Positions 1 to 21,730 of a stretch of DNA of 64,000 nt are shown here, one piece after another (position 1 is the stretch's first letter; every line of letters begins with the position of its first letter). Below the pieces are notes generated by a model. The model was not told the origin of the DNA, ran no database searches, and was given only the letters and a program-made list of their open reading frames with translations. Both the position numbers and the translations under genes were made by a program. This DNA is from Ianthella basta (Eukaryota; Porifera; Demospongiae; Verongiida; Ianthellidae): contig OZ025869.1 in the NCBI GenBank assembly GCA_964019415.1, positions 9,663,714 through 9,727,713 of the forward strand, written 5' to 3'.

Positions 1-73
1 TCCTTCTGTTTCACTACCGAATTTGGTAAGGTGACCCCCAAATGGGGGAGCAAAGCAAAAGAGTCAAGATCTT

Positions 74-3000: not shown

Positions 3001-3360
3001 ATGCGGTCTGATGTGAGCTCCTAGCCTTCCATTGTTTTCCACCTGCCTCCCATGCTTGCACTGCTGGCCCACTGAGTACAACTGCTACTCCCTCTCCCCT
3101 TTGTCTAGTCTCACCAACAGGTGGTGTTGGCCTACCTGCTGCAATTACAATACTCTCCCCAACCTTATACACTGCATCATTAAGCCACTTAGTCTCCTGC
3201 AGAGCAGCAACAGAAATTTTGTACCTCTCCAGTTCTTTCACTACTTGATCTATTCTACGGTCATCAAATTGTCCTGTCTCAGCATACTGTCTTGCTGTCT
3301 CCACTGAACCATCATACTCCAGTAAAGTCCTTACGTTCCATTAGCCCAAGAACCAAGTTG
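74..3360 (-). mobile_element. Degenerate APE-type non-LTR retrotransposon (LINE)
   Basis: Read on the minus strand, the pieces occur in the order of an APE-class LINE ORF2. A 5' endonuclease is at about 3350-2660 (TWNVRTLL-type start, VAALQETKW, RGEGVAVVLSG). Reverse transcriptase follows at about 1950-890, with GFCKGRGCSDMIFAV, INLRKAYDSVPREALW and the catalytic LQFADDAALLA block. A thumb/C-terminal part lies at about 880-416 (LLYGAECWT, RRLEWLGHLARM). Two zinc-finger-like stretches end it at about 260-74: CPECLRTFCRESDMKRHKC, an in-frame TAA, then CPTCKKWFKSCGGF and TAG at 76-74. The reading frame is broken many times and the usual MGDFNAR motif reads MGYFNARVG at about 2880, so one metal-binding Asp is lost. 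The copy is dead. It stops just before the hairpin element that starts at 3399, so its 5' end is probably cut there. Superfamily placement beyond 'APE-type LINE' is inference. Confidence 0.88.
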
Positions 3361-3398
3361 AGCCCTTTCGCCTTGCTCTCTGTGCAGTCTGTGTTTTT

Positions 3399-4487
3399 AG
3401 GGGCTGCCACAGGCAGCCCCTATATTGTTTCTGTTTTGACATTTTGTTGTATGGTTTCATGTTCCACTTCCGGTGGTGTATATGTCGGTATGTTTATATA
3501 ATATGTTAACTGCGGCAGTATAACTGTACTTGCATTTATATAATAATGTATCTACGGATGTATTGAAGATAGAGAATTTATATTGTTGGCCTTTTGCTTT
3601 GCCTTTCTCGCACCGGAAAGACCGAGGGAAGGACTTTGAAGCCGGCTTCCAAATGTCGTTCTGCGCGGAGCATCGGCGTCTTCTGTCTCCGAAAGTTGTA
3701 GAACAGGCAACCACACCACCTCTAGTCTGAAGACATACAGAAAGCAGTGGGATAACACCCAGCAGTTTGGCGACTTGCTTCACACAATGCTTTCAATCAT
3801 GGCCGCCCCGTTGAAGGACTTCGTTCCCTGTCTTAGAAAAGTGACAGGAGCGATGTAGAACTTGGTGAGCTCCACGAATTCTGTACGCAAATGTTTGCTA
3901 ACGGTCTATGGCGTTTAAAGCTTAAGCGCGAACAGTTACCCTTTGAAATTTCCTCCAGATGGTGTGCGTAGTGCGGTCGAGCACTGCCTTCTGCCACAAC
4001 AGAATCCTAGCCGCTGCAATGACTACGGGTGTGCTGTATAGCACTTGCAGGTATCTGTGTGCCCTCCATCAATGTCCGTCTCCTCTCATCCATGTTTATA
4101 CAGAGCAGAGTGCTATAAAACTATATAGTACTATAGAACTATGTGCACGCATGCAACACTGCTATTCTATAGCAGTGTTGCGTATGTGCGTGCGTGCATG
4201 TGTGTAATTGATTGCAACTCTGAGAATGTGCAAAGTGTGTATCAGTTATGTACGTTAATGTAATGTGCCGTTGTGCAAATGTGTGTCAAAATATTTTTGA
4301 CTCTATTCATGTCCACTTTCAATCATTTCTGTTCATTCTTGCCTATGAAGTGTGTTCATAAGTGTGTTGAATTGCACAAAATTAGTTGCAATAGCTACTG
4401 TATATTGATAACACAGCAGCGATCGGAGGGAGCAAGTATTTTGAGTTGGGGTGGCAGCCCCACGAGTTTTTTAACTCGAAATACTTG
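3399..4487 (+). mobile_element. Short non-coding element, hairpin ends, family A copy 1
   Basis: The left end has a perfect 9-bp stem, GGGGCTGCC, loop ACA, GGCAGCCCC (3400-3420), followed by TATATTGTTT and a tract ending TATGGTTTCATGTTCC. The right end (4433-4487) is an outer imperfect stem, CAAGTATTTTGAGTT against AACTCGAAATACTTG. It encloses GGGGTGGCAGCCCC and then the hairpin CGAGTTTTTTAACTCG. The GGCAGCCCC half of the left stem recurs in the right end. No convincing coding sequence lies inside. The left 270 bp resemble 13457-13690. The layout recalls Helitron2/Helentron non-autonomous elements; that assignment is inference. Confidence 0.6.
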
Positions 4488-4959
4488 TTCCGGGAGTGCT
4501 GCAAGTTCTCCATGGATTGATACGCAGGGGAAGGTCCAGGTGACGCCATCGAGCTCACGAACCTTGTAGGCTAGTGCAGTTAGTCAATGAGGCTGTGCAC
4601 TCAGCATGGATTAGTATTTAAAGACACTGCTGTCCTATTAGAAGGCTGGACAGTTAGTGTGACATTCATTGTGACATCACGTAAGCATCACCTCCAAGAG
4701 CAAGATAGGAAGCACCCTCAAAACCCTACATGCCCAAGGACACATAGAAGCACAACTGCTGTACTGATTAGAAATACTGTACCATGGTAAGCGCACGTAG
4801 TGTGCACCTACCTGCAGGCTACGTGTGGGTGCGCGCGGGTACACGCAAATTTAGCACAAAGATGTCGTCACAATGGTGTAAAATGGCTGCTGATATACAC
4901 GTAAACAAAATAAACAAAGTGTGAAATCCCACCTTATATCGAACGAAAGTGAGAGAACT

Positions 4960-5980
4960 ATGTCGAGTCATCTATCATCCTATCTGAGGGAACGAATCGT
5001 TGCTTTGTGGGAAGAAGGGAAGAAAGCTTCGGAAATTGTGACGACTTTGGAATCCGAAGGGAAAAGAACTTTGCATGCTACTGTCCGGAGATGGGTGTTT
5101 CGCTGGAGAACCAATCGTGGTTTGAGGGATAGACATTGTTCTGGACGACTATCGAAGATCACCGCTGAAATAGGCGCTTTTGTGGAGGCAAAACTACAAG
5201 AAGACGATGAAATAACCTCTGTGGAACTGCAGAGGTTAATATCCAGGAAGTTCTCTATCAACATTAGTGCACCCACTATTCGAAGACATATAAGGATGCA
5301 CCTGAAGTGAGTAGTTGTACGCACAAGGTTTGGCCCAACGATTTCAGATAAAAACAAGGCCAAAAGAAGTACATTTGCTCAGATGTGCCTGGACACAGAA
5401 GATTCATTTGATAATGTCATCTGGACAGATGAAAGTTCAGTGCAACTGACACGCCACAGCCAGACGATGAGAGTGAAGATGGGGAAAGAGTGTGTACTGA
5501 AGCCTGCTGCAAAACATGCTGTCAAGGTGCATGTGTGGGCTGGAATATCAAAGAGAGGTGCCACAAATATGTGTTTTTGATCAGATAATGGATGGTGGAT
5601 TGTACACTCAAATTTTGGACCAGTATCTGTTGCCGTTTCGGGAGAAACATTTTCCTGGCACAGAATATTGTTTTATGCAAGACAACGATCCCAAACACAC
5701 CAGTCGCATTGCCAAAGATTATTACCAGGAAAAAGGCATCAGTTGGTGGCCAACACCTGCCAGCAGTGCGGATTTCAATCCCATTGAATGTGTTTGGAGA
5801 GAACTAAAGCACTTCATTGCCCGGCATGTGAAGCCCTTGAACAAGAAGGAACTCGTTGATGAAATTTGCTTGTTCTGGAAAGAGAGGATGTCACCGGCTA
5901 AATGTATCAAGTACATCAATCACACTCACACTGTCTCGCCAAAAATTGTGGCAAAAGAGAGAGGCATTACAGGAGAATGA
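4960..5980 (+). pseudogene. Tc1-like transposase, DD34E, inactivated
   Basis: The start ATG at 4960 precedes a helix-turn-helix region (RERIVALWEEGKKASEIV). The catalytic core follows. The first Asp is in VIWTDESS (codon at 5428), the second in MQDNDPKHT (5681), and the Glu in FNPIECVWRELK (5786). Exactly 34 residues separate the second Asp from the Glu, so this is DD34E, the Tc1 signature. The family cuts and pastes DNA at TA sites. Two lesions inactivate the copy: an in-frame TGA at 5308-5310, and a one-base frameshift around the T run at 5574-5578. The catalytic residues themselves are intact. I could not find convincing terminal inverted repeats, so the element borders are not given. Confidence 0.93.
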
Positions 5981-6324
5981 CATTATAACTCTTTATTATT
6001 CAGGTCGATTTTATTCAAGCCACAATGACATATGTACCTATATATATATATACTGTGTTTATGCATGTGCATGCCTGAATACCATAAAGAACAAAAGTAA
6101 TACAGTTACCCAAATGAAATAAATAAATAATAATATATAAGCTGCTAAATTCTTCCTACAGTAGATCTGCACTAAAACATGCATGCAAAATTGGGGCACA
6201 GTCTCCTGTGCTCACATGCAAGTCATAGTAAAATGTAATTAAGAATTGAAATCATTTAAATCAAATTGATTGTCCTTGATTGTGCTCAATCGTCGATTTT
6301 ATCTGTAAAATGTTTGACTATAAC

Positions 6325-6760
6325 AGACTTACAATACAATAAGTAGTATATAATTATGACAAAGATACAATATGTCGTATGTACGTATTTATATGAGATA
6401 CAATAAGTAGTATAGCAATATGTCATATGTACGTACTTATATAAGATTAACCAGTAAGCCCGTCTTTGGCGGGCTCACCCACTATGGCGAAGGAGTGATA
6501 ATTAAAAATGGTGTCCCTTTGCAAATGTTAACTCCTGAAAATGGTAAGATGGTTGATTACAATGTGCGGAATATAAGCCCAGGTGTGTTCTTCATATTCC
6601 CTGAGAGTTTGGCTACGCTCTGTGCAGTAGTTTTTGCCTGATTCGTGAACATCCAAATGAACAAAGATACAATAAGTAGTATAACAAAGATACAATATGT
6701 TGTATGTACGTATTTATATAAGATACAATAAGTAGTATAGAAAAAGATACAATAAGTCGT
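6325..6760. repeat. AT-rich short direct repeats around a 220-bp spacer
   Basis: The phrase GATACAATAAGTAGTATA and the related GATACAATATGTCGTATG, followed by TACGTATTTATAT, recur on both sides (6330-6445 and 6660-6765). Between them lies a unique stretch of about 220 bp containing a small hairpin, CCCGTCTTTGGCGGG, near 6460. No gene is visible. It could be the two ends of a small insertion or a degenerate tandem array. Confidence 0.6.
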
Positions 6761-6799
6761 ATGACATGCATAGTAATGAGTGTTTATTTAGTTTACAGT

Positions 6800-7743
6800 T
6801 TAAAGTTGGTAAAACACAGTTCTTCTTGTGTACCTGCTGAGTTGGCGACAACTGCTGTCGACAGATTGCCTGTACTCTCTCCACACTACCTTCTCAGTCT
6901 GGCCTGGCCTTACAGGGTAAATAGAGTAGACAGCATTTTTGACTGCTGCCATTCGCTTTGGTGAAAGCTGCCTTTTCCCAATCCCTGCACAATTGGATGT
7001 GGCTCTTTCAAACTTTGTGAAACACTTTTTCACCAATTGTACTGCCAGATTGTTCTCAGAATTAGCAGCTTTGTAACATTCAGCAATCACATCCTGTCTG
7101 ATCTTCAGTGGCGATGACGAGCCATCCTCAAAGACTGCTCCATAATCAATGGTATCATCTTCATGTGGTCTGAGCTCAGTCTGATGGAATGATGACTGTG
7201 ACTCATGTGGGGTGTGTTGATGCAGTGGGTGCTGAAATGGTCCAGGTGGGTAAGATGAGTAAGGTGTGCTGGGGTGCACTGGCTCAGGTGGGTAGGACGT
7301 GTGAGGGGTGTTTGGGGTGCACTGGCCCAGGTGGGTAGGACGTGTGAGGGGTGTGTGGGTGCACTGGCCCAGGTGGGTAGGATGTGTGAGGGGTGTTGGG
7401 GTGCATTGGCCCAGGTGGGTAGGACGTGTGAGGGGTGTTTGGGTGCGCTGGCCGAGGTGGGTAGGATGAGTAAGGTGTGTGGGGGTGCACTGGCCAAGGT
7501 GGGTAGGCTGAGTAAGGTGTGTTGGGGTGCATTGGCCCAGGTGGGTAGGACGTGTGAGGGGTGTGTGAGTGCATTGGCCCAGGTGGGTAGGACGTGTGAG
7601 GGGTGTGTGAGTGCACTGGCCCAGGTGGGTAGGACGTGTGAGGGGTGTGTGGGTGCACTGGCCCAGGTTGGGTAGGACATGTGAGGGGTGTGTGGGTGCA
7701 CTGGCCCAGGTGGGTAGGACATGTGAGGGGTGTGTGGGTGCAC
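6800..7743 (-). pseudogene. BEN-domain-like protein, C-terminal exon with repeat-coding region
   Basis: On the minus strand, the last about 110 codons before the stop at 6800 read like the C-terminal half of a BEN domain: an AECYKAANSENNLAVQLVKK helix, then CFTKFERATSNCAG, KRQLSPKRMAAVK and a final helix with VVWREYRQSV. BEN domains bind DNA or chromatin proteins. Upstream, a 42-bp minisatellite (about 7745-7284) encodes a 14-residue Pro/His unit of the type HPHTPHTSYPPGPV. Single-base length changes in some units (near 7302 and 7666) shift the frame, so the coding sequence is not continuous here. It may be a pseudogene, a polymorphic allele or a base-call error. No upstream exon was found; the next sequence is a Penelope-like fragment on the other strand. 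Confidence 0.55.
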
Positions 7744-7745
7744 TG
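7284..7745. repeat. 42-bp minisatellite, about 11 units
   Basis: Plus-strand units have the form GTGGGTAGGACGTGTGAGG followed by GGTGTKTGGGTGCACTGGCCCAG. They differ by point changes (some carry GATGAGTAAGG), and a few have one extra or one missing base. In the minus frame each unit adds 14 residues rich in Pro, His and Tyr. Confidence 0.9.
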
Positions 7746-7819
7746 GCCGTGCTAATAACTGCGTTTGATGTGAGTTTTCATGGTACAGTATTTCTAATCA
7801 CTACTGTATGTGATTTCCT

Positions 7820-8640
7820 AACACCCCGCTACTCAACTCCTCCACAGATGTATGGCCTACCCAAAATTCACAAAGAATGTACCCCCATGCGACCCATTGT
7901 GTCAACCATCAAGTCACTAGCCTACAAGCTCGCCAAAGAACTGACACGCATCCTCACCCCACTAGCTGGGCACACTGCATACATATTCATGAACTCCACC
8001 ACAATTGTGAGCAGGATACAAGACATACAGATGACACCAGAAGACAGACTTGTCAGCTTCGGTGTCAAGAGCCTCTTCACGGAAGTCCCAGTTGAAGCTG
8101 CACTAAAAGTGATCGAAGAAAAGCTGACCAATGATCAGTCCCTGGCAGAGAGAACCAGCATCCCAACTGACAACCTTGTTGAACTGACAAGCCTCTGCCT
8201 CAGGACCACCTACTTTCAGCTAGGAGAGGAGTTCTACAAGCAACTGGACGGAGCAGCGATGGGTTCACCCTTGTCCCCAGTGATTGCCAACCTGTACTTG
8301 GAGCACCTGGAGGAGACAGCTCTACAATCAGCACCTCTCAAACCTAACCTATGGGTTAGGTATGTGGACGACACGTTTGTCAACTGGCCCCATGGACCAG
8401 AGGAACTCAGGTCATTCCACCAACTCCTTAATGCACAGCACCCTAAGGATCCAGTTCACGGTTGAGGAGGAGAAGGAGGACAGGCTTCCTTTCCTGGATG
8501 TCATGGTCACCAAGGAAGGGGAGAAGCTGGTGACACTCAGTTTACCGCAAGCCTACCCACACGGAGAGGTACATCCCCCACCACTCCCACCACCATCCAA
8601 GAACCACAACTGGAGTCCTATGATGCATGAAGCACAGGGT
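7820..8640 (+). pseudogene. Penelope-like element reverse transcriptase fragment
   Basis: The protein reads YGLPKIHK, then RPIVSTIKSLAYKLAKEL, LVSFGVKSLFTEVPV, GAAMGSPLSPVIANLYLEHLE and WVRYVDDTFV. This motif order is typical of Penelope-like RTs; YVDD holds the catalytic Asp pair at about 8367-8372, and SFGVKSLF replaces the usual SFDVKSLF, losing a core Asp. A frameshift near 8455 moves the next block (EDRLPFLDVMVTKEGEKL) into another frame. Homology then fades by about 8640. No GIY-YIG endonuclease follows, so this is truncated at both ends and inactive. The left end abuts the coding minisatellite. Confidence 0.88.
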
Positions 8641-8659
8641 ACACAACATTTGCGTTTTG

Positions 8660-9666
8660 TCGTCTCTCAATTGAATGAAATGCGTTCCAGAACATGTATT
8701 AATAGAATGATACTAATAAAAAGCTTAACTAAAGATTCTTCTGTGAGATGAAGCTCCAATTATCTCAGACAGATATTGTAAAATGGCTGCGCTCGACACT
8801 CTTTGCTTAATAAGCTCACAATAATCTTTCTTCATATTTTGTGTTTCTTCATGAAGCGAAACTGACATCTCAATTTCAGGTGAATTGTCTGAAAGTTAGA
8901 ATCATAAGACACCACAAAGAATGTGGTAGAGGCTGTTGGGGAAATGGCATGCCATCCTTCTTTCGCACTTCGAATACAAAGCAAAAAATGCAGCGCTAGA
9001 GAACTTCCGCATTCGTAGTAAGAATATCTGGGACTTTGTCTGTTTTGCTACTCCTCTAGTCACTCCATTCTTGCCATGTAGCAATGCACCACGTTGTATG
9101 TTTCTGTGCTGCTGCAGGGATGGCAGCTTGCTTTGCTTTTTCTACATATGTGTCCCGTAATCGTTGCCCCAACCTGGAAGAGCTACTGTGAACGCTTCAA
9201 GTGACTTTGCTTCCATTTGGGATCTGTTTCTACCAATGCTTGTTGCTATATAGAAACAAAGAACCAATGGTTTTAGCATTGACGTGGTTTAAAGTAGCAT
9301 AGGATATGCCTGTGCTATGATTATTTCATTTCTATAGCAATACAGTGGTTGCTATCATAGTCTAAACAGCTGTTGGTGTCTACGGGATTTAGAACACCTT
9401 GGAAATCTTGTGCTTTGCACACAGGCATCTATAAGAATTGATTTCTGCGGTGTTCGAAATCCTGTAGGCACCTCGTATCTTGGTCTAACCTATGTTTGCA
9501 CTGTATTAACTGTGAATTGCTTTAGTGCTCAGCGTCTAGGAGAATGGCGGTACAACACAAGAGAGAAGAAGGCCTCGGCTTCTGTAACAAGAATAGTGTA
9601 ATAGTAGTAGCTGTATTTTGAGTTTTGGGGTGCAGGCGCCTCACATGTATTTAAACTCTGAATACC
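8660..9666 (+). mobile_element. Right part of a family A hairpin element (5'-truncated)
   Basis: Positions about 8690-8850 align with 20950-21120, sharing the phrases GATACTAATAAAAAGC, AGCTCCAATTATC and ATTGTAAAATGGC. The right end (9611-9666) has the family A plan in decayed form: TGTATTTTGAGTT, then GGGGTGCAGGCGCC, a weak hairpin and CTCTGAATACC. No left end is present before 8660. The stretch holds no recognisable gene. Confidence 0.5.
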
Positions 9667-9742
9667 AGTTTCAATCAAATACCTTTTGGCCTGAAATATC
9701 AGTGTAACTGAGAATATTCATTTATTGTTTATCTGTATGCAG

Positions 9743-12084
9743 GGTTTACTGAAAAGGATTGCCTGGAGCTGTACCAGAAAGCAATCGCCAAGGAGCTTAC
9801 CATCAACCTTCATGTTGCCAAAGCTATGACTATTGGCTCTCCTCGAGTTGGCAAGACCTGGTTACGATACCTTCTCCTGCGCCTGCCACCGCCTTCAGTC
9901 AGTGCAAGTACAACTATGATGGAAACACCAACAACAATTGGCGTTCTTTCCTCATCTGAACCAGATGTAGACAGAGATCTAGCTCAGAGATGCGGTGAAA
10001 AGGGACGTGTCAAAACTGACTTGTTTCACCTTACTTCTGAAAGAGGCAAAGACAAATGGGTTGTTGTGAATGAAGCCAGTAGTTTGCATGGCTTGCTGAG
10101 TTTATTAAAAGAGGACTTTAATGTACACAGTCGTGCTACATTAGGGCTAGGGGTAACGAGTAGCAGAGAGATCTACGAAAGGATGGCATTTAATGACATG
10201 CAGATCACCTCACCGGCAATTGTTCCCACGATTCCTCCAGCTCCTGATATAAAGAATACAATACAGCTAGTCTCAGATGAAAGGGCACTCGGCATGCAGA
10301 AAAACTTACAGGAAGATGCTCCTTTGGTTGTTCAAGATTACCCAAACCCTGTACCACAAGATGGTACCGCCATAGCACAGCAGATTCTTCAGTTCTTGGA
10401 GCACTCTGATGTGCAAGACATTACTCTGCGTGATGCAAAGCTCTTACTCTTTATGGACTGTGGAGGGCAGCTGGCATACCATGATATTCTCCCCCTCTTC
10501 ATCAGTAGTCCGTCAATTTACCTGCACGTGTTTAACCTTGCAGAAGACTTAAATGAATGCCCTACAGACAGAATTCAGGATAAGGAAAGGGAATTTTACT
10601 ACAAAGCAAGATCCCCAGTTACTACTGCTCAAATGATTTGTCGTTCAATGATGACGATCAAGTCTGTATCTTGTAAGAATGCTAACCTTCCTGAAGATAT
10701 CATGACTTCGCCTTTTGAGCCTATTGTCATGCTGGTAGGTACACACCTTGATGTAGTAGAAAAGAAGTGCAAAGAAAGTGCACAGACAGAGAAGAGACTT
10801 AAGGAAGTAAATGATACACTTTCGGAAACGCTGACTTCAAAAACTCATGGTTTGGAAGAGATGATACAGAGAATTCGTACACCTCCTCTACCATCCATGT
10901 TCTTTCCTGTTAACAATATGCTCTATGCTGAGGAAAGTGAGGGTCAGTGTTCAGAGCTTGGTGTGCTTGCCATTGACTGCCTTAGAAAAAAAGTGAGTGA
11001 TTTAATTTCTCGTGTGGAAGTGAAAGTCCCTGTGAAATGGTATGTGTTTCAACTGTTAGAGACGAGCCAGGCAAGGAAGGGGAGCAAGCCTGTGTATAGG
11101 TACAGTGAGCTGTACCAGTCCTGCTGTGAATTGCTGGCTGTTGGTGATCTCGGAGAATTTCACACCATGGTCACCTACTTCAATGCTTTGGGTCTCTTTG
11201 TTCATCTGTGTGGAGAAGATGTTAGGCACACAGAGGACAGTGACTGTTTTATTTTTACTATTCCTACATACCTCTCTGAAATCATTTCTAAGCTATATCA
11301 AGTCCAATTTCTGGAAGAGGATAGGTGTGGGGGTGGCCTAATAAGTCTCAAACAACAAGGAATACTGACTATTAAATCACTTCAAGATCTGCACGTGCTT
11401 GAACATCACCTTCAGCATAAGGACTTAATGGAAATTTTAGTCCAGCTTTTCATTGGAGCGGAAATTTTGGACACTGGAATTGGAGACAAAGGCATGGTGC
11501 TTTTTATACCATCGGTGCTGATGCAGCCAGCTGGAGGTCATTCAGGTGCACTTAATTCAGCTCTGCGAGAATCTCAGCTACACTTCGTTCTTACATTCAA
11601 GGACTTATCATTTATACCATGTGGTGTATTTGCTGGAGTAATCACCCGTCTGCAATCCACAAAGGCGTGGGAGATATGTCGGGAGCGCCTTTATCGTTTT
11701 CACATGCGTTTTGCTGTAGGAGTACAAGATTTTGTTAGCCTCTTTGACTGTGCCACCCACATCATTGTAGTGATGGAAGTCAAAGATGAGCTAAAAGCAC
11801 AGGTGTACCGGGACACCATTCTGAATGCAGCTGCAGATTCAAATTGCTTCCTTTACCATGGTAAGACTGGCAAGGTTCTTCAAAGTGCATCATCCCGGAG
11901 CTGCTGCAACAATGCATTGCTAGTTCTTGGACTAATATGCTATGCTTGTGCGTCTGAAGCTAACCACATTGCAGTGCTACATGTGGAAAATAGTATTCCG
12001 ATGACAGTTCGCTGCCAGAAGACAAAAGCTGTAGTTGTTCTTGATGCCAAGCAACAATTGCTGTTTCAGAACATAAAGCATCAT
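9743..12084 (+). CDS. ROCO-type GTPase: large Roc-COR-like exon
   Basis: One open exon of 2,342 bp, entered after a good acceptor (TTTATCTGTATGCAG at 9728-9742, phase 1) and left at GTAAGT (12085). Counting from the internal Met at 9826, the P-loop is GSPRVGKT (residues 4-11), the Walker B/G3 motif is MDCGGQ (near 210) and the G4-like motif is MLVGTHLD (near 302). The gap of about 200 residues between P-loop and G3 is far longer than in a standard Roc domain. It includes STTMMETPTTIGVL, which may hold the switch I Thr. After the GTPase come a COR-A-like winged-helix stretch (VPVKWYVFQLLETSQ onward, about 405-570) and a COR-B-like stretch (FIPCGVFAGVITRLQ onward, about 600-750). ROCO proteins act as GTP-regulated signalling scaffolds. 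Upstream exons are not visible, since repeats fill 7.8-9.67 kb. Downstream exons were not identified. Family assignment is good; pathway role is unknown. Confidence 0.78.
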
Positions 12085-12111
12085 GTAAGTTTAGGTAGGA
12101 AGGGAGCTTAG

Positions 12112-13440
12112 TGTAGCCTCTCAGAACGTTTTGAGCAATGTTTTATACTCTGCACTATTGAACCTTCTGAAAATATGAACAAGTGTTTATAGAAAGTGCT
12201 TACACAGCTCCAAACACCCCTGTGAACCCCACTTAGCATTTGTGAGAGTCGCCAGTAGAATTTGCACCTTGCTGCATTTGGCCAATTTTGACATTCATCA
12301 TTTCGATAATCACAAATGCCTTTAAAAGTCCAGCAAGTGGATCCATACATCTGTCGGTGAGAAATCATTAAATCAGGTGAATCGAGCCCCCTTGCCATGT
12401 CCAATGCAAGTATTCTTGCTGCAGTCTACTTCTATGCCAGTAAGGTCATGCAACAGATGGCTGGCTTATATGCTAAACATAATGTGCATTGGTTCACAAT
12501 AATCATGTAAGGCATGCATAAGTGCATATGTATTCTCTGATAATAAGTGCTGATGCACATAACAAGACAGGTCAATGATAGTTAAGGAAGAAGTAGTTAA
12601 TGTATGCACTCATGTTCTGTGTCAATGAGAGAGAGTTTGACAATTGCAAATATTGCAACAGAGTTTGTTTATTGCTTCAAGTTCAAGGGAGGCTCCTGTG
12701 CCATGTAGGCTACACCTTGTCTGCCTAACACCTGGTTGGACTTACTTCATAGTATGCACCCAAAGAGGGCATTTCTGATGCCAGTGTTCCAACGACTGTC
12801 CTTTTCAATGCCAGTGAGTCACACAACAGAAGGCAGACTCTCAGGCTGCACCTTGGCTGCCTAGCATCTGATGCACCTCCTGTGTACCAGATTCTAGCCA
12901 GGCAAGGTGCAGCTGGGTGCCTGGTGAGCATCTGATGCCCAGGAGCACAGGTGTCATGCTCCTGGTCCATAGAGGTACTTGCTACAGAGTAGGCTCCTGT
13001 ATTTATTTGCACTTGGGATGGACCTTGAGTGTATTAGTTGACGATATTCAGGAGCAGAGTACTAGGCTGCAATATTGCTGGACCAGGTCTCAGAACGATC
13101 CTGCATAGTTGCAACAACACCTAAACCTCAATTATGCGGGACCCTCTGTGTCCAGTGCCACACTACCTGGATCTTGGCTTGTGTGCACAGGTTTTTGAAC
13201 AACGTTTTACACAATGGTCTTCCTTTTGCTGTGCATTGATGGTCTGACATGTGAAGGAGCTGTAATCCTGCTCTCAGCATTGCAGTATAGGACTGTACCC
13301 AGAAATCCGTATACTTCCTCTGTAGATCCAAGATGGCTATCTGTCGGTTAAAGGATTTTTGCCATGCGCTCCTTGGCAGCAGCTTTAATCTAGCATGCCA
13401 ACCCCTAAGCTACGTTTGGTGTAGCTGACAAACACTGAGA
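12112..13440. other. No gene seen; possible ROCO intron
   Basis: After the ROCO donor site I see no convincing exon. Two loosely similar stretches around 12660-12760 and 12770-12930 share CCTTGTCTGCCTAACACC-like and AATGCCAGTRAGTCA-like phrases and may be an old duplication. Confidence 0.4.
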
Positions 13441-13456
13441 AAGATTGGTGGTTTTA

Positions 13457-13700
13457 GATGCTGCCACAGGCAGCCCCTCTATATTGTTTTCAATTTGAGA
13501 TTTTGTTGTATGGCTTCATGTTACGAATATATATATACTACATGAACCTACAGTTGTACTCCAATACTTACTTTATATTGAATGTATTGGGTGAAGTATT
13601 GGTTATAGGAATTTATATTGTATGCCATTTCATTCGGCCTTAAGTGGACCGTGTGTAAGACCAAGAGACTTTCAAAACCGGCTTCCAAACGTCGTAGTGA
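13457..13700 (+). mobile_element. Left end of a family A hairpin element
   Basis: The stem GCTGCC, loop ACA, GGCAGC (13460-13474) is followed by CCCTCTATATTGTTTTC and GTATGGCTTCATGTTACG, closely matching the left end at 3399. The match goes on to CCGGCTTCCAAACGTCGT near 13680 (compare 3640). The 5' GGGG of the stem has decayed to AGAT. I found no right end carrying the same stem sequence downstream. Confidence 0.6.
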
Positions 13701-15100
13701 ACTTTGGACATCCTCTTCCACCACTACTCCTGGAACAGACTATAGCACTTTTGGTCAACAGGCACAGAGACAGCTTCAGGACAGTGCCCAATAGATCATT
13801 GACTTATCCCTGCGTCTTCTTTGACAATGGCAGCCTGCCGCAGTGGCCTTCACTCTGCTGCCTGAAACACATGACTGGATTAACATAAAAACTGATAAGT
13901 GCCATGATTTGTACACGCTAGCTAGTGTTGAAAAGCTTAGCATGCATAGTTGCTCTTCTAATAATTATTTATTAAGCATTTATAAATATTATGAATGCTC
14001 TCAGAACCTTGCCCACGCATGCTGCACTGTAGCACTGTAGCTGTCTGGCGACTGTGGGTTCCTTGGTACATTATGTTTCTGTAAGCAGTCATGTGCCTGT
14101 CTGGACTGGAGCTTTCTCTGTGCATGTGTGTGCGTGTGTGCATGTGTATGTGAGTGTACATGTTTAAATTACATTTGTGTGTGTCTGTCTGTGTGTGTGC
14201 GCGTGCGTGTGTGTGTGTGTGTGTGTTCATGCGTGTGTGTGTGTGAGTGTGAGTGTGATGTTTGTGTGTGTGTGTACATGTGTGTGCGACCGCAGCAAAC
14301 AAGATGGTGATGAAAGTTGTTGTTCGCAAGCTATAAGTCTTTTCTCAGAGCCAAATGGCCAGCCAAAAGAAAGAATTACTTGACACAGCTAAACAACAAG
14401 AATAAGCAACGGTACTGTGTCTTCTGAAGCCTCTGCATGCAGATTTTGGGCTCAAGCTACTCGAGAAAGACAGTACATAAGTTTGTGTGTCTTTGACAGA
14501 TATTTGTGCACCTCGGGCATGGGCAGGAGACCAGAAGAAGTTGTCAATAGAGGCTCTGTCACTGATTCAGGTGTTCTGAAGTTGATGTTTCCACTGAAGT
14601 CTTGTACTCTGATAAATATACCCATAGTTAACACCAATTGTCAGGATGCATAAAGTTGTCATCCCTGCTTATCCGCATAATAACTTATGATGACTTTATG
14701 CGTCATCTGCAGCTAAAGGGTTAAATGCACTCCTGTGCTAGCGAGGGAAAACAAATTGGCTGACAGGTGCACTAGTAGCATTGAAGTGAATTCTGTAGCT
14801 TTGCGAAGAGGCTGTTTTACTAAAAAGCGCTTGTTTTAATTGAATCTTTTGCAGCACTGAGGCGATCCATAGGTCTTCTTGTCCGATTTGTTACAGTATG
14901 GAAAAGTTGAACGCAAACACACATACACACACACCAACTACTGTAACCTTGCTGAGGGTTAATCAGACTTTTCTGGTCCCTACATTCAAGGATGATGATA
15001 TTCAGTGCTATGTTCTTGCATGTAGGGACCACGGTTAATGCTCCACTGTGTAACAGCCTTCACCTGTTTCTGTCCTTTTTATGCCATTCCTACATCCTTC
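13700..15100. other. No gene seen; GT microsatellite inside
   Basis: This stretch has no recognisable coding region. A (GT)n-rich tract covers about 14115-14290. An imperfect stem of GCATAAAGT against ACTTTATGC lies at 14645-14705. Confidence 0.5.
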
Positions 15101-15182
15101 TTATTGGGGCGCCGAAGGCGCCCCTATATTGTTTTCAGATTTAGGTCTTCGTATGGCTTCATGTTCGTATATATATATATAT

Positions 15183-16889
15183 ATTGCAGCCACCACCACC
15201 TGTGCCAGTAGAGTACCTGTGCTAGTTGGTCATAGAAAAAAAGCACCACCAGTGCAAGTTACAGTAGCCACCACCACATGTGTCAGTAGAGTATCTGCGC
15301 TAGTTGGTCATAGAAAAAGACCACCAGTGCAAGTTACAGTGGCACCAGCACCATTCGCACCACCACATGTGCCAGAAAGTATATGCGCTCAATGGCTGAA
15401 GAAAAAGACCACCAGCGCAAGTTACAGCCGGTCAGAACCTGCACCGCCGCCATTGGAGTGCACGCTGCAGCAAGCAAATGTAAGCTTGCCTAAGGGCATG
15501 CCATTGAATTGGGGTGCATGGGAAGAAATTCAATGGCATGCCCTTAGGCAAGTTACATTTGCTTGCTGCAGCGTGCACTCCAATGGCGGCGGTGCAGGTT
15601 CTGACCGGCTGTAACTTGCGCTGGTGGTCTTTTTCTTCAGCCATTGAGCGCATATACTTTCTGGCACATGTGGTGGTGCGAATGGTGCTGGTGCCACTGT
15701 AACTTGCACTGGTGGTCTTTTTCTATGACCAACTAGCGCAGATACTCTACTGACACATGTGGTGGTGGCTACTGTAACTTGCACTGGTGGTGCTTTTTTT
15801 CTATGACCAACTAGCACAGGTACTCTACTGGCACAGGTGGCGGTGGCTGCGATATTGTAACTTGCACTGTGTGGTGGTGGTGGTGGTGTTTTTTCTAGAG
15901 CAATGGCGGATATACTGAATGCATGCATTGTACTGGCACCATGTGGTGGTGGTGGTGGTGGTGGTCATTTTCATCTAGGAATGCATGTGGTGGCCGTAAT
16001 ATTGTAACTTGCACTGTGTGGAGGTGGTAGTAGTATGTGGTAACAGCGCCTGATGTGGTGGTCTGTTTCCTTGCAGCTCTAGCGCATAATATTATACTGG
16101 TGTGCTCATTGCAACTTCCACTGTGGTGGTGGTGATGGCGGTTGTATTTATCTATGTGGTGGTGTAGTAGCTGGATATTATGGCTGGATAGTTGTGAGCA
16201 AGTGTACATGCTGGTGCTGCTCTGCTCCAGCATAGCGGCAAATGCCTACAAATTGGTGTCAAAATGTGATTGTTCAAAACATAGCCTCCATTTTGTGACT
16301 AATTAAGCAATACTGCTAATGACATGAGGAAATTGGTCATCTAACTACATCCACTTAGTATCATGACTTAGCAGGGCTGGGTTGGTAAGATATGCAATGA
16401 ACCTCATTTTCCTCGGCCATTTTGCAACAAATTAAGAAATCCTGCTAATGACATGAACAGTTGGATTATCTGGCTAGGTCCACCAAGTGTCATGACTGAG
16501 CGGGCTGGGCTGGTTAAATACATCATACACCTCACATATGTCAGCCATTTTGAGACTAATTAAGAAATCCCGCTAATAACATAGGAAGGTGGACCACTTG
16601 GATGTGTCCACCAAGTTTCACGTCTCAACGAGCCCAGTTGCATTAATATACAAGATAACACTATGCATCAATATAAATGCACCATACATTAAGTGTTATG
16701 CTATGAACATTTATATTAGAATTTTGCGGGCTGCTTGTAGAAGAACGAAGGCCTAATTAAAAATTCTGCCTCATTTAAAAGTCTTAAAATCTCCCATACT
16801 TCAAAGGCACACCTATCACATGTTCATGAGGGGTGCCTAACCCCCCGGGAATTATATTATATTATATTATATTATATTATATTATATTA
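15183..16889. mobile_element. Foldback unit 1
   Basis: Two near-perfect inverted arms of about 328 bp (15183-15510 and 15527-15855) face each other across a 16-bp spacer. Each arm carries repeated modules containing TGTAACTTGCACTG or its complement, spaced about 70-140 bp. After the right arm come more single modules (15858-16230), a degenerate 128-bp triplet (from 16288) and a (TATAT)-type tail at about 16850-16889. Apparent His- or Pro-rich frames here come from CCACCA/TGGTGG runs and I do not regard them as coding. Confidence 0.85.
16288..16665. repeat. Degenerate tandem triplet, period 128-129 bp
   Basis: CCATTTTG starts at 16288, 16417 and 16545. It is followed each time by ACTAATTAAG-like, CTGCTAATGACATG-like and TCATGACTNAGC-like phrases. 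The same three-repeat block sits at equivalent positions in the other foldback units (near 18298, 20142 and 37378). The three repeats in a block are far more diverged than the blocks are from each other, so the triplication is older than the spread of the unit. Confidence 0.8.
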
Positions 16890-18955
16890 ACACCACCACA
16901 TAGATAAATACAACCGCCATCACCACCACCACAGTGGAAGTTGCAATGAGCACACCAGTATAATATTATGTGCTAGAGCTGCAAGAAAACAGACCACCAC
17001 ATCAGGCGCTGCTACTATATACTACTACTACCACCACCACACAGTGCAAGTTACAATATTACGGCCACCACATGCATTCCTAAATGAAAATGACCACCAC
17101 CACCACCACATGGTGCCAGTACAATGGATGCATTCAGTATATGTGCCATTGCTCTAGAAAAAACACCGCCACCACCACCACACAGTGCAAGTTACAATAT
17201 CGCAGCCACCACCACCTGTGCCAGTAAAGTATCTGTGCTAGTTGGTCATAGAGAAAAAGACCACCAGTGCAAGTTACAGTAGCCACCACCACATGTGCCA
17301 GTAGAGTATCTGCACTAGTTGGTCATAGAAAAAGACCACCAGTGCAAGTTACAGTGGCACCAGCACCATTCGCACCACCACATGTGCCAGAAAGTGAATG
17401 CGCTCAATGGCTGAAGAAAAAGACCACCAGCGCAAGTTACAGCCGGTCAGAACCTGCACCGCCGCCATTGGAGTGCACGCTGCAGCAAGCAAAAGTAAGC
17501 TTGCCTAAGGGCATGCCATTGAATTGGGGTGCATGGGAAGAAATTCAATGGCATGCCCTTAGGCAAGTTACAATTGCTTGCTGCAGCGTGCACTCCAATG
17601 GCGGCGGTGCAGGTTCTGACCAGCTGTAACTTGCGCTGGTGGTCTTTTTCTTCAGCCATTGAGCGCATTCACTTTCTGGCACATGTGGTGGTGCGAATGG
17701 TGCTGGTGCCACTGTAACTTGCACTGGTGGTCTTTTTCTATGACCAACTAGTGCAGATACTCTACTGGCACATGTGGTGGTGGCTACTGTAACTTGCACT
17801 GGTGGTCTTTTTCTCTATGACCAACTAGCACAGATACTTTACTGGCACAGGTGGTGGTGGCTGCGATATTGTAACTTGCACTGTGTGGTGGTGGTGGCGG
17901 TGTTTTTTCTAGAGCAATGGCACATATACTGAATGCATCCATTGTACTGGCACCATGTGGTGGTGGTGGTGGTCATTTTCATTTAGGAATGCATGTGGTG
18001 GCCGTAATATTGTAACTTGCACTGTGTGGTGGTGGTAGTAGTAGTATATAGTAGCAGCGCCTGATGTGGTGGTCTGTTTTCTTGCAGCTCTAGCACATAA
18101 TATTATACTGGTGTGCTCATTGCAACTTCCACTGTGGTGGTGGTGATGGCGGTTGTATTTATCTATGTGGTGGTGTAGTAGCTGGATATTGTGGCTGGAT
18201 AGTTGTGAGCAAGTGTACATGTTGGTGCTGCTCTGCTCCAGCATAGCGGCAAATGCCTACAAATTGGTTTCAAAATGTGATTGTTCAAAACATCGCCTCC
18301 ATTTTGTGACTAATTAAGCAATACTGCTAATGACATGAGGAAATTGGTCATCTAACTTCATCCACTTAGTATCATGACTTAGCAGGGCTGGGTTGGTAAG
18401 ATATGCAATGAACCTCATTTTCCTCGGCCATTTTGCCACTAATTAAGAAATCCTGCTAATGACATGAACAGTTGCATTATCTGGCTAGGTCCATCAAGTG
18501 TCATGACTGAGCGGGCCGGGCTGGTTGAATACATCATACACATCACATATGTCGGCCATTTTGAGACTAATTAAGAAATCCCGCTAATAACATAGGAAGG
18601 TGGACCACTTGGATGTGTCCACCAAGTTTCACGTCTCAACGAGCCAAGTTGCATTCATATACAAGATACCACTATGCATCAATATAAATGCACCATACAT
18701 TAAGTGTTATGCTATGCACATTTATATTAGGATTTGGCGGGCTGCTTGTAGAAGAACGAAGACCTAATTAAAAATTCTGCCTCATTTAAAAGTCTTAAAA
18801 TCTCCCATACTTCAAAGGCACACCTATCACATGTTCGTGAGGGGTGCCTAACCCCCCGGGAATTATATTATATTATATTATATTTTATATTATATTATAT
18901 TATATTATATTATATTATATTATATTATATTATATTATATTATATTATTTACTTT
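16889..18955. mobile_element. Foldback unit 2, longest arms
   Basis: The inverted arms run about 16890-17525 and 17542-18177, roughly 635 bp each and nearly identical, with a 16-bp spacer (GGGGTGCATGGGAAGA). The right flank (18178-18880) repeats the unit 1 flank, including the 128-bp triplet. It ends in a long (ATATT)n tract at about 18863-18947. The arms are twice as long as in unit 1 because they also include the modules that unit 1 has on its right side only. Confidence 0.87.
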
Positions 18956-18959
18956 AGAT

Positions 18960-20757
18960 TAGTGGTGTATATTGTAACTTGCACTGTATCCACACAGTGC
19001 AAGTTACAATATTGCAGCCACCACCACCTGTGCCAGTAGAGTATCTGTGCTAGTTGGTCATAGAAAAAGACCACCACCAGTGCAAGTTACAGTAGCCACC
19101 ACCACATGTGTCAGTAGAGTGTCTGCGCTAGCTTGTCATGGAAAAAGAACACCAGTGCAAGTTACAGTAGCCACCACCACATGTGCCAGTAGAATATCTG
19201 CGCTAGTTGGTAATTGAAAAAGACCACCAGTGCAAGTTACAGTGGCTCCGGGCCAGCACATGCAAGTTACAGCTGGTCAGAACCTGCACTGCTGCCATTG
19301 TAATGCACGCTGCAGCAAGCAATTGTAAGCTTGCCTAAGGGCATGCCATTGAATTGAGGGTGCATGGGAAGAAATTCAATGGCATGCCCTTAGGCAAGTT
19401 ACAATTGCTTGCTGCAGCGTGCATTACAATGGCAGCAGTGCAGGTTCTGACCAGCTGTAACTTGCATGTGCTGGCCCGGAGCCACTGTAACTTGCACTGG
19501 TGGTCTTTTTCAATTACCAACTAGCGCAGATATTCTACTGGCACATGTGGTGGTGGCTACTGTAACTTGCACTGGTGTTCTTTTTCCATGACAAGCTAGC
19601 GCAGACACTCTACTGACACATGTGGTGGTGGCTACTGTAACTTGCACTGGTGGTGGTCTTTTTCTATGACCAACTAGCACAGATACTCTACTGGCACAGG
19701 TGGTGGTGGCTGCAATATTGTAACTTGCACTGTGTGGTGGTGGTGGTGGTGTTTTTTCTAGAGCAATGGCGCATATACTGAATGCATGCATTGTACTGGC
19801 ACCATGTGGTGGTGGTGGTGGTGGTCATTTTCATCTAGGAATGCATGTGGTGGCCGTAATATTGTAACTTGCACTGTGTGGTGGTGGTGGTAGTAGTATG
19901 TGGTAGCAGCACCTGATGTGGTGGTCTGTTTCCTTGCAGCTCTGGCACATAATATTATACTGGTGTGCTCATTGCAACTTCCGCTGTGGTGGTGATGATG
20001 GCGGTTGTATTTATCTATGTGGTGGTGAATAGCTGGATATTGTGGCTGGATAGTTGTGAGCAAGTGTTGGTGCTGCTCTGCTCCAGCATAGCGGCAAATG
20101 CCTACAAATTGATGTCAAAATGTGATTGTTCAAAACATTGCCTCCATTTTGTGACTAATTAAGCAATACTGCTAATGACATGAGGAAATTGGTCATCTAA
20201 CTTCATCCACTTAGTATCATGACTTAGCAGGGCTGGGTCGGTAAGATATGCAATGAACCTCATTTTTCTCAGCCATTTTGCAACTAATTAAGAAATCCTG
20301 CTAATGACATGAACAGTTGGATTATCTGGCTAGGTCCACCAAGTGTCATGACTGAGCGGGCCGGGCTGGTTGAATACATCATACACCTCACATATGTCGG
20401 CCATTTTGAGACTAATTAAGAAATCCCGCTAATAACATAGGAAGGTGGACCACTTGGATGTGTCCACCAAGTTTCACGTCTCAACGAGCCCAGTTGCATT
20501 AATATACAAGATAACACTATGCATCAATATAAATGCACCATACATTAAGTGTTATGCTATGAACATTTATATTAGAATTTTGCGGGCTGCTTGTAGAAGA
20601 ACGAAGGCCTAATTAAAAATTCTGCCTCATTTAAAAGTCTTAAAATCTCCCATACTTCAAAAGCACACCTATCACATGTTCGTGAGGGGTGCCTAACCCC
20701 CCGGGAATTATATTATATTATATTATATTATATTATATTATATTATATTATATTATT
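18960..20757. mobile_element. Foldback unit 3
   Basis: The inverted arms run about 18993-19355 and 19373-19736. The arm sequence differs from units 1 and 2 in the middle: the segment containing GGCTCCGGGCCAGCACATG replaces the GGCACCAGCACC segment, on both arms alike. The outer tip reads CAGTGCAAGTTACAATATT. The right flank again carries the triplet and a terminal (ATATT)n tract at 20706-20755. Confidence 0.85.
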
Positions 20758-20850
20758 TACTTTAGATTAGTGGTGTATATTGTAACTTGCACTGTATATA
20801 TTATTTACTTTAGATTAGTGGTGTATATTGTAACTTGCACTGTATATATA
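20757..20850. repeat. Two direct copies of a 49-bp foldback tip
   Basis: The phrase TTTACTTTAGATTAGTGG, then TGTATATTGTAACTTGCAC and TGTATAT, occurs twice in a row. A single copy sits at 18950-18990, and a related GTTACTTGCACTGTATAG at 42806-42830. These look like outer ends of the foldback family. Confidence 0.75.
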
Positions 20851-21730
20851 TATTTCTGTCATTTTGCAAATGGCGGCGCTCACGTCGTTCTTTACAAAGC
20901 TTTAAATCCTCTCTAATGACGTTTCGCCGTGTTTGAATCGAACGAAATGTGGTCATAAACATGTGTTAATAGAGTGATACTAATAAAAAGCCTAAGGAAC
21001 GTCTCTTCTGCGAGATACAGCTCCAATTATCACTGACGGACATTGTAAAATGGCCGCGCGCTCGACGCTTTCTGTTTGCTAGGCTCAAAACCATTCTCTT
21101 TAGATTTCGCCGTGTATCCAAAGAACGCAAAGTGTTTCTAGAACATGTTTAAGTAATATTATTGTGGTAGGAAGCTTACTTAACTGTTTTCCTGCGAGGT
21201 ACAGCCCTAAATACAACAGAAGTCTAGTGACCCGTAGGCCAATAATGGAGGACCAGCGAGTCATGACACATAATTATAGCCATGATTCGCTCATATAGTC
21301 ATCATAGGGTAGCCTTTTAGCCAGCACACTCCTCCTCCAGGCACAAAGTAACAATTGCTCATTTAGAATGTCATATAGATCAAAAAGCAGTAGGCAAACA
21401 TTTGACAGTTTGGTCGGGATGCTTTCACTGGATATGACTGGCTGCTCTGGAGACTTGAAACTCTTGCAAACCCAACGGTCTAGTGTGTCTTGATGTATCT
21501 TTCAGGCCAACAACAATACTGTACCCCCAACTATCTGATTTACTGAACGTACATAGGAAAATTGCTAGCAAGTAGTTCGAGGTTCAGGGGCACCCTGGCG
21601 CCCCACGAGTTTTTTAACTCGAAATACTTGTTTTTGTTGAAGCTTTATTATTGTGAGTTTCTGCACTTATTATGGAGCATGAGCTAAAATACATGATTGC
21701 CTTGGCAGCAAATGATACAATAAGCTCAAT

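Follow-up and report, generated by a model that had tools for sequence, protein, structure and literature searches.

Two lineages of Helitron2/Helentron-like elements with matching terminal hairpins in the sponge Ianthella basta

The matching hairpin ends analysed here very probably belong to non-autonomous Helitron2/Helentron-type (HINE-like) rolling-circle transposons of two sister lineages, A and B, whose ends would be matched to each other through pairing of their asymmetric terminal inverted repeats (ATIRs). The two lineages, the anatomy of their ends, the agreement of the stem sequences (codes) at left and right ends and the empty insertion sites were observed directly in the I. basta genome. 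An apparently new feature is that the left hairpin has its three-base loop in either of two orientations. The ends were first seen in a stretch of 64,000 nucleotides, referred to as the window.

Anatomy, copy number and insertion sites

The four end sequences that an earlier note on this DNA had described were found at 3400-3420, 4433-4487, 15106-15124 and 21569-21630, and the features of the window are listed in Table 1. In both window elements the arm of the left hairpin was found again, inverted, 26 nt before the right end, and the same terminus, ACGAGTTTTTTAACTCGAAATACTTG, closes both right ends. The A element showed 80.8% and 83.6% identity to another A copy (L044) over 720 and 317 bp. 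The B element showed 99.2% identity to L031 over 788 bp, and a 9.7-kb B element (L143) was filled by the same repeats as the window copy. The loop ACA of the window's left hairpin A is probably a CpG-decayed GCA; the family's GCA form gave a DNA fold with 10 pairs and -12.5 kcal/mol, and the left hairpin of B folded with -11.2 kcal/mol. The right end of A, in the family form with GGGGCGG, folded with -19 kcal/mol (z -9.1), and the right end of B was folded in the family form with GGGGCGCC. No exact lineage A right end followed the decayed A-type left end within the window.

Table 1. Features of the two lineages in the window
Feature	Position	Strand	Description
Non-autonomous Helitron2-type element, lineage A	3399..4487	+	1.09 kb
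Left-terminal hairpin A	3399..3421	+	AGGGGCTGCC-ACA-GGCAGCCCCT; within it, at 3400-3420, GGGGCTGCC-ACA-GGCAGCCCC; first arm is the 5'-ATIR
Right end A	4433..4487	+	Outer stem, core GGGGTGGCAGCCCC, 3' hairpin, terminus; 3'-ATIR GGCAGCCCC at 4453-4461
Decayed lineage A left end (third A-type left end)	about 13457..13489	+	No exact A right end after it in the window
Lineage B element	15106..21630	+	0.84-kb B element expanded by ~5.7 kb of repeats
Left-terminal hairpin B	15106..15124	+	GGGGCGCC-GAA-GGCGCCCC; first arm is the 5'-ATIR
Three quasi-palindromic repeat units inside the B element	15181..20845	+	~1.7-2.1 kb each
Right end B	21569..21630	+	Outer stem, core GGGGCACC-CT-GGCGCCCC, 3' hairpin, terminus; 3'-ATIR GGCGCCCC at 21597-21604

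The end sequences recur throughout the 209-Mb genome. The 17-nt right terminus was present in 967 copies (control 0), a 26-nt right end in 311 copies (reversed-pattern control 0) and TATATTGTTTT in 1331 copies (control 207); with these counts, the recurrence is not due to chance.

Empty sites were sought with the joined flanks of 3399-4487 as the query, in which the junction lies at position 98. Seven places matched over query positions 1-161, through the junction, with 83-89% identity, and an eighth matched over positions 70-161; there were 12 matches in all, two of which were the window itself. These empty sites lie in related repeats, and five of the seven were read. The A element at 3399-4487 is accordingly one mobile unit flanked by its two ends, as the earlier note had proposed. 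Compared with the empty paralogues, about two Ts at the insertion point can be assigned to neither element nor flank (one site read). TT followed 29 of 30 right ends that had been picked regardless of their flank, TT preceded GGGG in 46 of 47 exact-stem B left ends, and a T-rich sequence followed by A preceded all 53 exact-stem A left ends.

The Helitron2/Helentron class that the earlier note had named proved to be the right kind by anatomy, with ATIRs, a 5' hairpin, a 3' hairpin and a T-rich target. In published Helitron2 elements the ATIRs measure 8-15 bp; the 5'-ATIR belongs to the 5' hairpin and is separated from the 5' end by 0-2 bp, the 3'-ATIR precedes the 3' hairpin at ~20-30 bp from the 3' end, and insertion is between TTTT and T or C (PMC3627910). 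Here the ATIRs measure 9-10 bp in A and 8 bp in B. The 5'-ATIR lies inside the 5' hairpin, 0-2 bp from the 5' end, a distance that would be larger if the flanking T-run belonged to the element, and the 3'-ATIR stands directly upstream of the 3' hairpin CGAGTT-TTTT-AACTCG. The target is T-rich, as it is for Helitron2/Helentron elements in general (TTTT before T, or TT, usually without target duplication). The canonical Helitron1 features (5'-TC, CTRR-3' and no 5' hairpin) were not found at these ends, which have a 5' hairpin starting with GGGG or AGGGG and end in ATACTTG.

Agreement of left and right codes

The pairing sample comprised the 100 left ends listed on C1 and the first 86 of the 100 right ends listed, up to the position at which the left list stops. 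Ends were paired when they lay on the same strand, left then right, within 16 kb, which gave 59 pairs among the matches listed; 4 of these, with duplicated flanks, were left out of the agreement count. Among the matches listed, the codes agreed in 42 of 42 pairs less than 4.5 kb apart (in 4 of them the left stem was gone, and the class was taken from the sequence next to it), in 9 of 10 pairs at 4.5-12.6 kb (the discordant one was classed in the same way) and in 1 of 3 pairs more than 12.6 kb apart. The stem sequences therefore match within elements, as had been predicted, in 51 of the 52 listed C1 pairs up to 12.6 kb; the discordant long-distance pairs are probably neighbours that were wrongly paired.

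The core difference between A and B is a single-nucleotide indel that occurs at three places, namely the left 5' arm, the left 3' arm and the right arm. The surrounding end sequences, which the earlier note had taken to stay constant, do so only in part: the sequence immediately internal to the left hairpin is different in A and B, and so is the outer stem of the right end. Nor were the codes found to be specific to single elements: two codes were found in numbers, and each marks a lineage whose adjoining end sequence is also distinct. Because the codes belong to lineages, the agreement across many copies is largely one historical change recounted. A candidate third code, GACAGCCCC, was rejected as a case of independent covariation, with 4 exact left ends genome-wide, of which 3 share the same flank, and one right end in the C1 sample.

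Of 38 pairs that span at most 12.6 kb and whose left stem is exact, 33 had an exact right arm and the other 5 an uncompensated right-arm change (C1 matches listed, duplicates included). Among the 18 pairs in which the left stem was altered or missing, one position was altered on both sides in a single pair (left end C1:5214151; by eye). Changes in single copies are thus almost never compensated, and within the lineages no sign of copying or compensation was found that would bear out the suggestion of ends being copied from one another in each copy. The lack of compensation is what an origin of these changes after insertion would lead one to expect, and it gives no positive support for end pairing.

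Because only two lineages exist, the covariation amounts to a single historical event and cannot prove pairing on its own. The agreement might reflect pure common descent, in which A and B diverged once and the codes drifted with their lineages, with no functional matching. The existence of only two lineages, the other end positions at which A and B differ and the five uncompensated right arms are all consistent with this explanation, but we consider it unlikely, as drift alone would hardly yield an identical one-nucleotide indel in three separate arms. Furthermore, the left arms have the full code in common with the 3' arm of the right end, but the 5' arm of the A right end does not share it, and matching ATIRs have been kept in Helitron2 families elsewhere (PMC5148889, PMC3627910).

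The left end begins with a hairpin that is stable in the single strand and in which the 5'-ATIR forms the 5' arm. If the ends are matched through ATIR pairing, as we favor, pairing of the 5'-ATIR with its own partner arm would form this hairpin, and pairing with the 3'-ATIR would open it and join the two ends. Because the 5'-ATIR would have these two alternative partners, a lineage-wide change of code would need three matching edits. Following Bao & Jurka, the pairing of 5'-ATIR and 3'-ATIR may signal the end of rolling-circle replication, with a RepHel protein, which combines an HUH nuclease with a PIF1 helicase, presumably acting in trans. The repeated inversion of the left hairpin in single copies probably comes from a palindrome copied in folded form. 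Matching hairpin ends, covariation between related elements and the idea of end pairing are already known, since compensatory end changes between two related Culex elements have been reported and ATIR pairing proposed (Bao & Jurka 2013, PMC3627910).

Two orientations of the left hairpin loop

In lineage B the left loops were GAA/AAA or, flipped, TTC/TTT (flipped in 26 of 310 copies), and in lineage A they were GCA/ACA or, flipped, TGC/TGT (71 of 271), giving 97 flipped left ends among 581; these genome-wide counts cover exact-stem copies and include segmental duplicates. Among the matches listed, 198 of 200 loops were one of two sequences, a CpG-decayed form or an exact reverse complement. The right-end B core shares its 8-bp arms with the B left end and has a shorter spacer; it was inverted in no copy and standard in 237 (compared with the B left end, Fisher p about 4e-7), so that both orientations of a terminal hairpin were found at the left end only. 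In exact-arm right B cores the arms enclosed CT (26), CC (3) or TG (1), never GAA or TTC, and conversion from the right end was rejected as the source of the left flips; 8 of 92 right-end rows had been left out because in them the palindromic A right end was matched on the reverse strand.

The flips are scattered over the trees of both lineages. In lineage A, 17 of 48 rows were flipped and 16 changes were needed, at least 9 of them forced, and in lineage B 11 of 35 rows were flipped and 8 changes were needed, at least 5 of them forced; both trees include long rows with expanded or differently built bodies. Shuffled labels needed 9.5 changes in lineage B, and 89 of 500 shuffles were as low as the observed 8, so that the B flips are slightly, not significantly, more clustered. 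In trees limited to rows that align to one main body, A needed 7 changes (at least 5 of them forced) for 8 flipped rows out of 24, and B needed 4 (at least 1 of them forced) for 4 out of 22; shuffled labels required just as many in each lineage. Neither loop CpG decay (A 7/19 vs 21/80, B 4/29 vs 8/70) nor nearest-relative identity nor end divergence showed the flipped copies to be clearly older, although the power of these tests is low.

The flips could be caused by replication template switching or by a transposition-linked, parvovirus-like fold-back. We give an even chance to spacer inversion by template switching between the short inverted repeats, after insertion and unrelated to transposition. 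In yeast, inverted repeats with arms of >9 bp and spacers of 2-5 bp have been shown to undergo spacer inversion, GAA to TTC among others (PMC8604942), and A, with 10-bp arms that include an A-T pair, is flipped more often than B, with 8 bp. The constant orientation of the right B core, in spite of its equal arms and shorter spacer, argues against template switching, as does, with little power, the lack of a clearly greater age of the flipped copies. An assembly artefact is less likely, given the zero inversions at the right core and the agreement in loop of duplicated insertions (four flank groups, 11 copies, by eye; the loop of one group is shortened).

Fold-back at transposition, to which we attach a somewhat lower probability than an even one, would have the bottom-strand 3' end at the left terminus fold back and prime synthesis and Rep cut at the hairpin base, with the inverted hairpin as the new left end. 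The near-restriction of the loops to two sequences and their reverse complements, the specificity for the left end, the scattered origin in both trees and the lack of a clear age trend are consistent with it, and the priming would yield a flipped top strand in one step. However, no intermediate and no enzyme were seen, the B flips are slightly clustered and flips need not arise at transposition; the joined-end, probably circular forms reported for Fusarium Helitron2 would also leave no free left 3' end (PMC5148889). A fuller analogy, which we regard as doubtful, would be a left hairpin that flip-flops during transposition through fold-back, self-priming and a Rep cut, with flipped copies, their GNA triloop lost on the transferred strand, rarely serving as parents.

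RepHel candidates, significance and comparison with known systems

No RepHel gene linked to A or B ends was found in the C1 pairs or at the C4:6801127 and C1:4809293 loci. RepHel-type genes are present in the genome, in which Helitron_like_N (PF14214) had 49 matches, some of them pieces of one gene, and none was seen inside the 59 C1 pairs (by eye, among the matches listed). One frame, not linked to A/B ends, combined Helitron_like_N, PIF1 and OTU domains, with no match at E 0.001 to an endonuclease family, the kind of domain that Helentrons in the narrow sense have fused to RepHel. The 19.7 kb around the frame at C4:6801127 held no searched end motif, and inverted repeats around this C4 RepHel gave many short, chance-like matches but no convincing ends. 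Near the frame at C1:4809293, the + strand carries a B-type right end 3.4 kb upstream and the - strand a decayed left end of B type ~13 kb downstream; because they lie on opposite strands, these do not bound one element. The two Rep genes there were rejected as a partner, as the DNA between also does not align end to end; about 4 kb of the intervening DNA was read only in part. The 9.7-kb B element contained no ORF of 150 aa.

To our knowledge, the end processing of Helitron2/Helentron elements is not settled. Hundreds of copies in two coded lineages make a good natural set for testing matched ATIRs as a signal that ends replication, and the flipped left hairpin, as the trace of some copying step, could reveal how the elements copy themselves. 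If flips form at transposition, the left end would go through a state that is both folded and end-open, and Helitrons would be linked to parvovirus-type replication by related HUH nucleases; were the flip-flop reading true, it would imply that Helentron transposition includes a step that is non-circular or end-open, and that the triloop is functional and strand-specific. If they form later by template switching, they offer a clean measure of it at a palindrome present in many copies, and the other end of the same elements serves as the control.

Parvoviruses replicate with a HUH nuclease and carry a terminal palindrome in two orientations (flip/flop). The elements described here share the two orientations, but only their left end flips, the hairpin has 19-23 nt and no virus or free linear genome is known. 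Helentron, HINE and DINE-1 elements resemble them in palindromic subTIRs, a 3' stem loop, a TT target, T-runs at the borders, central repeats and high-copy non-autonomous derivatives; DINE-1 is described as the most abundant repeat in Drosophila melanogaster (PMC4067079). Their subTIRs measure 12-15 bp in mite HINEs and 13 bp in DINE-1, compared with 8-10 here, where no autonomous partner is linked to A/B (PMC4067079). FoHeli1 and FoHeli2 of Fusarium oxysporum likewise have 5' hairpins around GAA, with stem arms found again in a 3' hairpin that lies 38-51 bp from the end, and form two related subgroups with different matched stems, as A and B do (PMC5148889). They differ in their full elements of ~5-6 kb and in insertion between TNAT and T, and the available part of that report does not mention flipped loops, which are present here (PMC5148889). 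The Helitron2 elements of Bao & Jurka (2013) share the ATIRs, the 5' and 3' hairpins, the target and the compensatory changes (PMC3627910). Their reported 5' T contrasts with the GGGG or AGGGG start found here, unless the flanking Ts are counted in, and loop orientation is not mentioned in the available part of that paper (PMC3627910), whereas the I. basta loops stand in both orientations.

Element ends, mobility and insertion target

Judged by their anatomy, the A element (element 1) and the B element (element 2) of the window are non-autonomous elements of the Helitron2/Helentron type, and the end anatomy upholds this family assignment of the earlier note. The four end sequences it named were all located where it had placed them, and the right ends of both A and B terminate in ACGAGTTTTTTAACTCGAAATACTTG. 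In the 209-Mb genome, where the window occupies C2:9663714-9727713, the right-end 26-mer occurred 311 times (0 for the reversed pattern) and the last 15 nt of the right end followed by TT 967 times (0 for the control); the left motif TATATTGTTTT occurred 1331 times against 207 for its control.

Features of the A and B elements and related loci (bare coordinates are window positions; C and L numbers denote contigs and fetched genomic stretches)
Feature	Position	Sequence or remark
Element 1 (A), left end	3399-3421	AGGGGCTGCC-ACA-GGCAGCCCCT, then TATATTGTTT
Element 1 (A), right end	4433-4487	
Element 2 (B), left end	15106-15124	GGGGCGCC-GAA-GGCGCCCC, then TATATTGTTTT
Element 2 (B), right end	21569-21630	
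Third A-type left end	~13457-13489	decayed
Left flank of A element	1-3398	by eye, resembles an antisense reverse-transcriptase element; related repeats provide the empty sites
Just downstream of A element	~4920-5980	by eye, resembles a mariner/Tc1-type transposase remnant
Quasi-palindromic units in B element	15181-20845	three units, ~1.7-2.1 kb each
Left end with enlarged loop	C1:2510062 (L043)	GGGGCTGCC-GCAGGCACA-GGCAGCCCC
Right end, then left motif	C1:799166-799200 (L008); C1:5172531-5172557 (L078); C1:7514040-7514071 (L122)	TATATTGTTTT within 1-9 nt
Tail-to-tail B right ends	C3:10318722/10320063; C3:10437892/10439233; C1:13032003/13033414; C3:7537428/7538424	1.0-1.4 kb apart
RepHel-type open frame	C4:6797599-6805140 (L144, L145)	2514 codons

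The 100 left motifs listed for contig C1 and the first 86 of its 100 listed right ends (to the end of the left list) gave, among these matches, 59 left-to-right pairs on the same strand and at most 16 kb apart. The joined flanks of the A element in the window matched seven other places through the junction with 83-89% identity, and an eighth partly; the five of these places inspected in full sequence all lacked the A element. These empty sites support, for this element, the proposal that the two ends bound one mobile unit. The insertion target is T-rich. TT directly followed 29 of 30 right ends chosen irrespective of their flank and preceded the left end in 46 of 47 B copies with unaltered left-hairpin arms (exact-stem copies), and T-rich DNA with a final A preceded the left end in all 53 exact-stem A copies. 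This A pairs with the T just after the hairpin in the DNA fold, and lineage A probably begins with it. The occupied A site had about two more Ts than its empty paralogues, and these may belong to the element.

The B element of the window is filled by three quasi-palindromic units rich in GTGCAAGTTACA and GGT repeats, which look like HINE-like central repeats enlarged by duplication. These repeats also make up almost the whole of another, 9.7-kb B element (L143), in which no ORFs of 150 aa were found. At three places on C1 a right end runs into a left end that bears the left motif without a hairpin, an arrangement that looks like a later element attached to the end of an earlier one. B right ends also occur tail-to-tail, with exactly equal spacing in two of the four pairs. 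RepHel-type genes are present in the genome (49 matches to PF14214); none linked to A or B ends was found among the C1 pairs and the regions around the RepHel frames. One open frame on C4 combines DUF6570, Helitron_like_N, PIF1 helicase and OTU protease domains, and a search around this locus found no element ends for it.

Agreement between the two ends

The agreement between left and right ends in their code, the hairpin-arm sequence common to both, is real. The end letters of all 59 C1 pairs were inspected, and four pairs with duplicated flanks were excluded from the count. The codes agreed in 42 of 42 pairs below 4.5 kb (in four, the hairpin was lost and the sequence adjoining it on the inner side decided the class), in 9 of 10 pairs of 4.5-12.6 kb, the tenth having lost its left stem, and in 1 of 3 pairs above 12.6 kb. 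The only codes found in quantity were A (GGCAGCCCC) and B (GGCGCCCC); the lineages also have different sequences beside the left hairpin and in the outer stem of the right end. As the two codes mark two lineages, the many agreeing copies report one change, not many. The claim that the codes change together at the two ends therefore stands for agreement within elements, but as a difference between lineages with two codes only. The A/B difference is the same single-nucleotide indel in both arms of the left hairpin (5' and 3') and in the right arm, and this occurrence in three arms is what makes the change notable.

Among pairs of up to 12.6 kb with an exact left stem, duplicates kept, the right arm was exact in 33 of 38 and carried an uncompensated change in 5; by eye, one position was altered on both sides in 1 of 18 pairs with an inexact left stem. 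These counts leave the idea that one end is copied from the other in each element unsupported, and such arm changes within a lineage are what decay after insertion gives. One left end on C1 has an enlarged loop, which looks like the product of a duplication that took in the loop together with a portion of the stem.

Inversion of the left hairpin

Nearly all loops of exact-stem left ends were one of two triplets, a CpG-decayed form of these, or the reverse complement of any of them, here called a flip. Counted by eye, the first 100 of 310 B loops comprised GAA (62), AAA (25), TTC (8), TTT (4) and TAA (1), and the first 100 of 271 A loops GCA (59), ACA (12), TGC (21), TGT (7) and ACC (1). AAA, ACA, TTT and TGT are the CpG-decay products of GAA, GCA, TTC and TGC, respectively. 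A path from GAA to TTC by point changes needs intermediates, and the single TAA is the most that was seen among the 200 loops listed. The remaining loops are explained if the whole hairpin was inverted in one piece, a change visible only in the loop, because the arms are palindromic. Over the whole genome, flipped hairpins made up 26 of the 310 exact-stem left ends of B and 71 of the 271 of A.

The flips are recurrent. In trees of the element bodies, where change counts do not separate gains from losses, 17 of 48 A rows were flipped and needed 16 changes, at least 9 of them forced by supported branches (label shuffles averaged 14); for B, with 11 flipped among 35 rows, the tree required 8 changes, no fewer than 5 of them forced (mean of the shuffles 9.5; a count this low in 89 of 500). 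Restricted to rows aligning to one main body, 8 of 24 A rows were flipped (7 changes, at least 5 forced) and 4 of 22 B rows (4 changes, at least 1 forced). A relative aligned over at least 450 bp was available for 19 flipped copies; for 15 of them the closest one in the set was unflipped, and the other four formed two mutual pairs. Flipping is also a left-end-specific feature. In the B right core, GGGGCGCC-CT-GGCGCCCC, arms identical to the 8-bp ones of the B left hairpin enclose a shorter spacer; the standard form of this core occurred 237 times and the inverse never, against 26 flips among 310 at the left (Fisher p ~4e-7). None of 84 distinct right ends had an inverted 3' hairpin.

Origin of the flips and relation to known systems

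Ordinary template switching, which inverts the spacer between short inverted repeats, stands as a plain explanation, given that it is known in yeast for arms >9 bp, including a change of GAA to TTC (PMC8604942), and that A, with the longer arms, is flipped more often than B. The main point against it is the restriction of the flips to the left end. Accumulation after insertion predicts more flips among older copies. CpG decay of the loop went with no clear excess of flips, which were found in 7 of 19 CpG-decayed versus 21 of 80 undecayed A loops (p 0.40) and in 4 of 29 versus 8 of 70 B loops (p 0.74). The identity of flipped copies with their closest relative was no lower (p 0.46 and 0.24), and their left ends were no more diverged (means 2.76 vs 2.39, p 0.79; 1.82 vs 1.28, p 0.84). 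The power of all these comparisons is low, and three show a weak tendency toward an age effect.

Fold-back priming followed by a cut may instead be the source of the flips. Read on the strand that has the left end of the element as its 5' end, the two lineages share a GNA triloop under a closing C-G pair, GAA for B and GCA for A, and both loop orientations had equal energy in the folding program used. Mini-hairpins of DNA that combine a GNA loop with G-C pairs are described as extraordinarily stable (PMC4686876). With a free end of the complementary strand at the left terminus, the 3' arm of that strand could fold back and prime synthesis; once cut at the hairpin base, the newly made strand would start with the inverted hairpin. 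Terminal resolution in parvoviruses, whose Rep, like that of Helitrons, is an HUH nuclease, follows the same logic of fold-back, priming and a cut at the hairpin base. No earlier description of the left-hairpin flip was found among the titles and abstract openings listed from the open-licence literature, which is weak evidence of novelty, and the recurrent inversion is the part worth following.

The matched ends have close published parallels. Helitron2 elements are defined by asymmetric terminal inverted repeats (ATIRs) of 8-15 bp, with the 5'-ATIR lying in the 5' hairpin at a distance of 0-2 bp from the end, and the 3'-ATIR ~20-30 bp from the 3' end, ahead of the hairpin (PMC3627910, Bao and Jurka, 2013). 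The same authors described insertion of Chlamydomonas Helitron2 elements between TTTT and T/C and, for two related elements of Culex, compensatory changes. They suggested that the 5'-ATIR, by pairing with the 3'-ATIR, breaks up the 5' hairpin and determines where replication ends. In Fusarium, FoHeli1 and FoHeli2 have matched hairpin stems that differ per subgroup, and their GAA loop is that of lineage B (PMC5148889). Helentrons and DINE-1/HINE elements share subTIRs, a 3' stem loop and a TT target with the A and B elements (PMC4067079). Given these features, the covariation of the ends, a lineage-level one, is known in kind.
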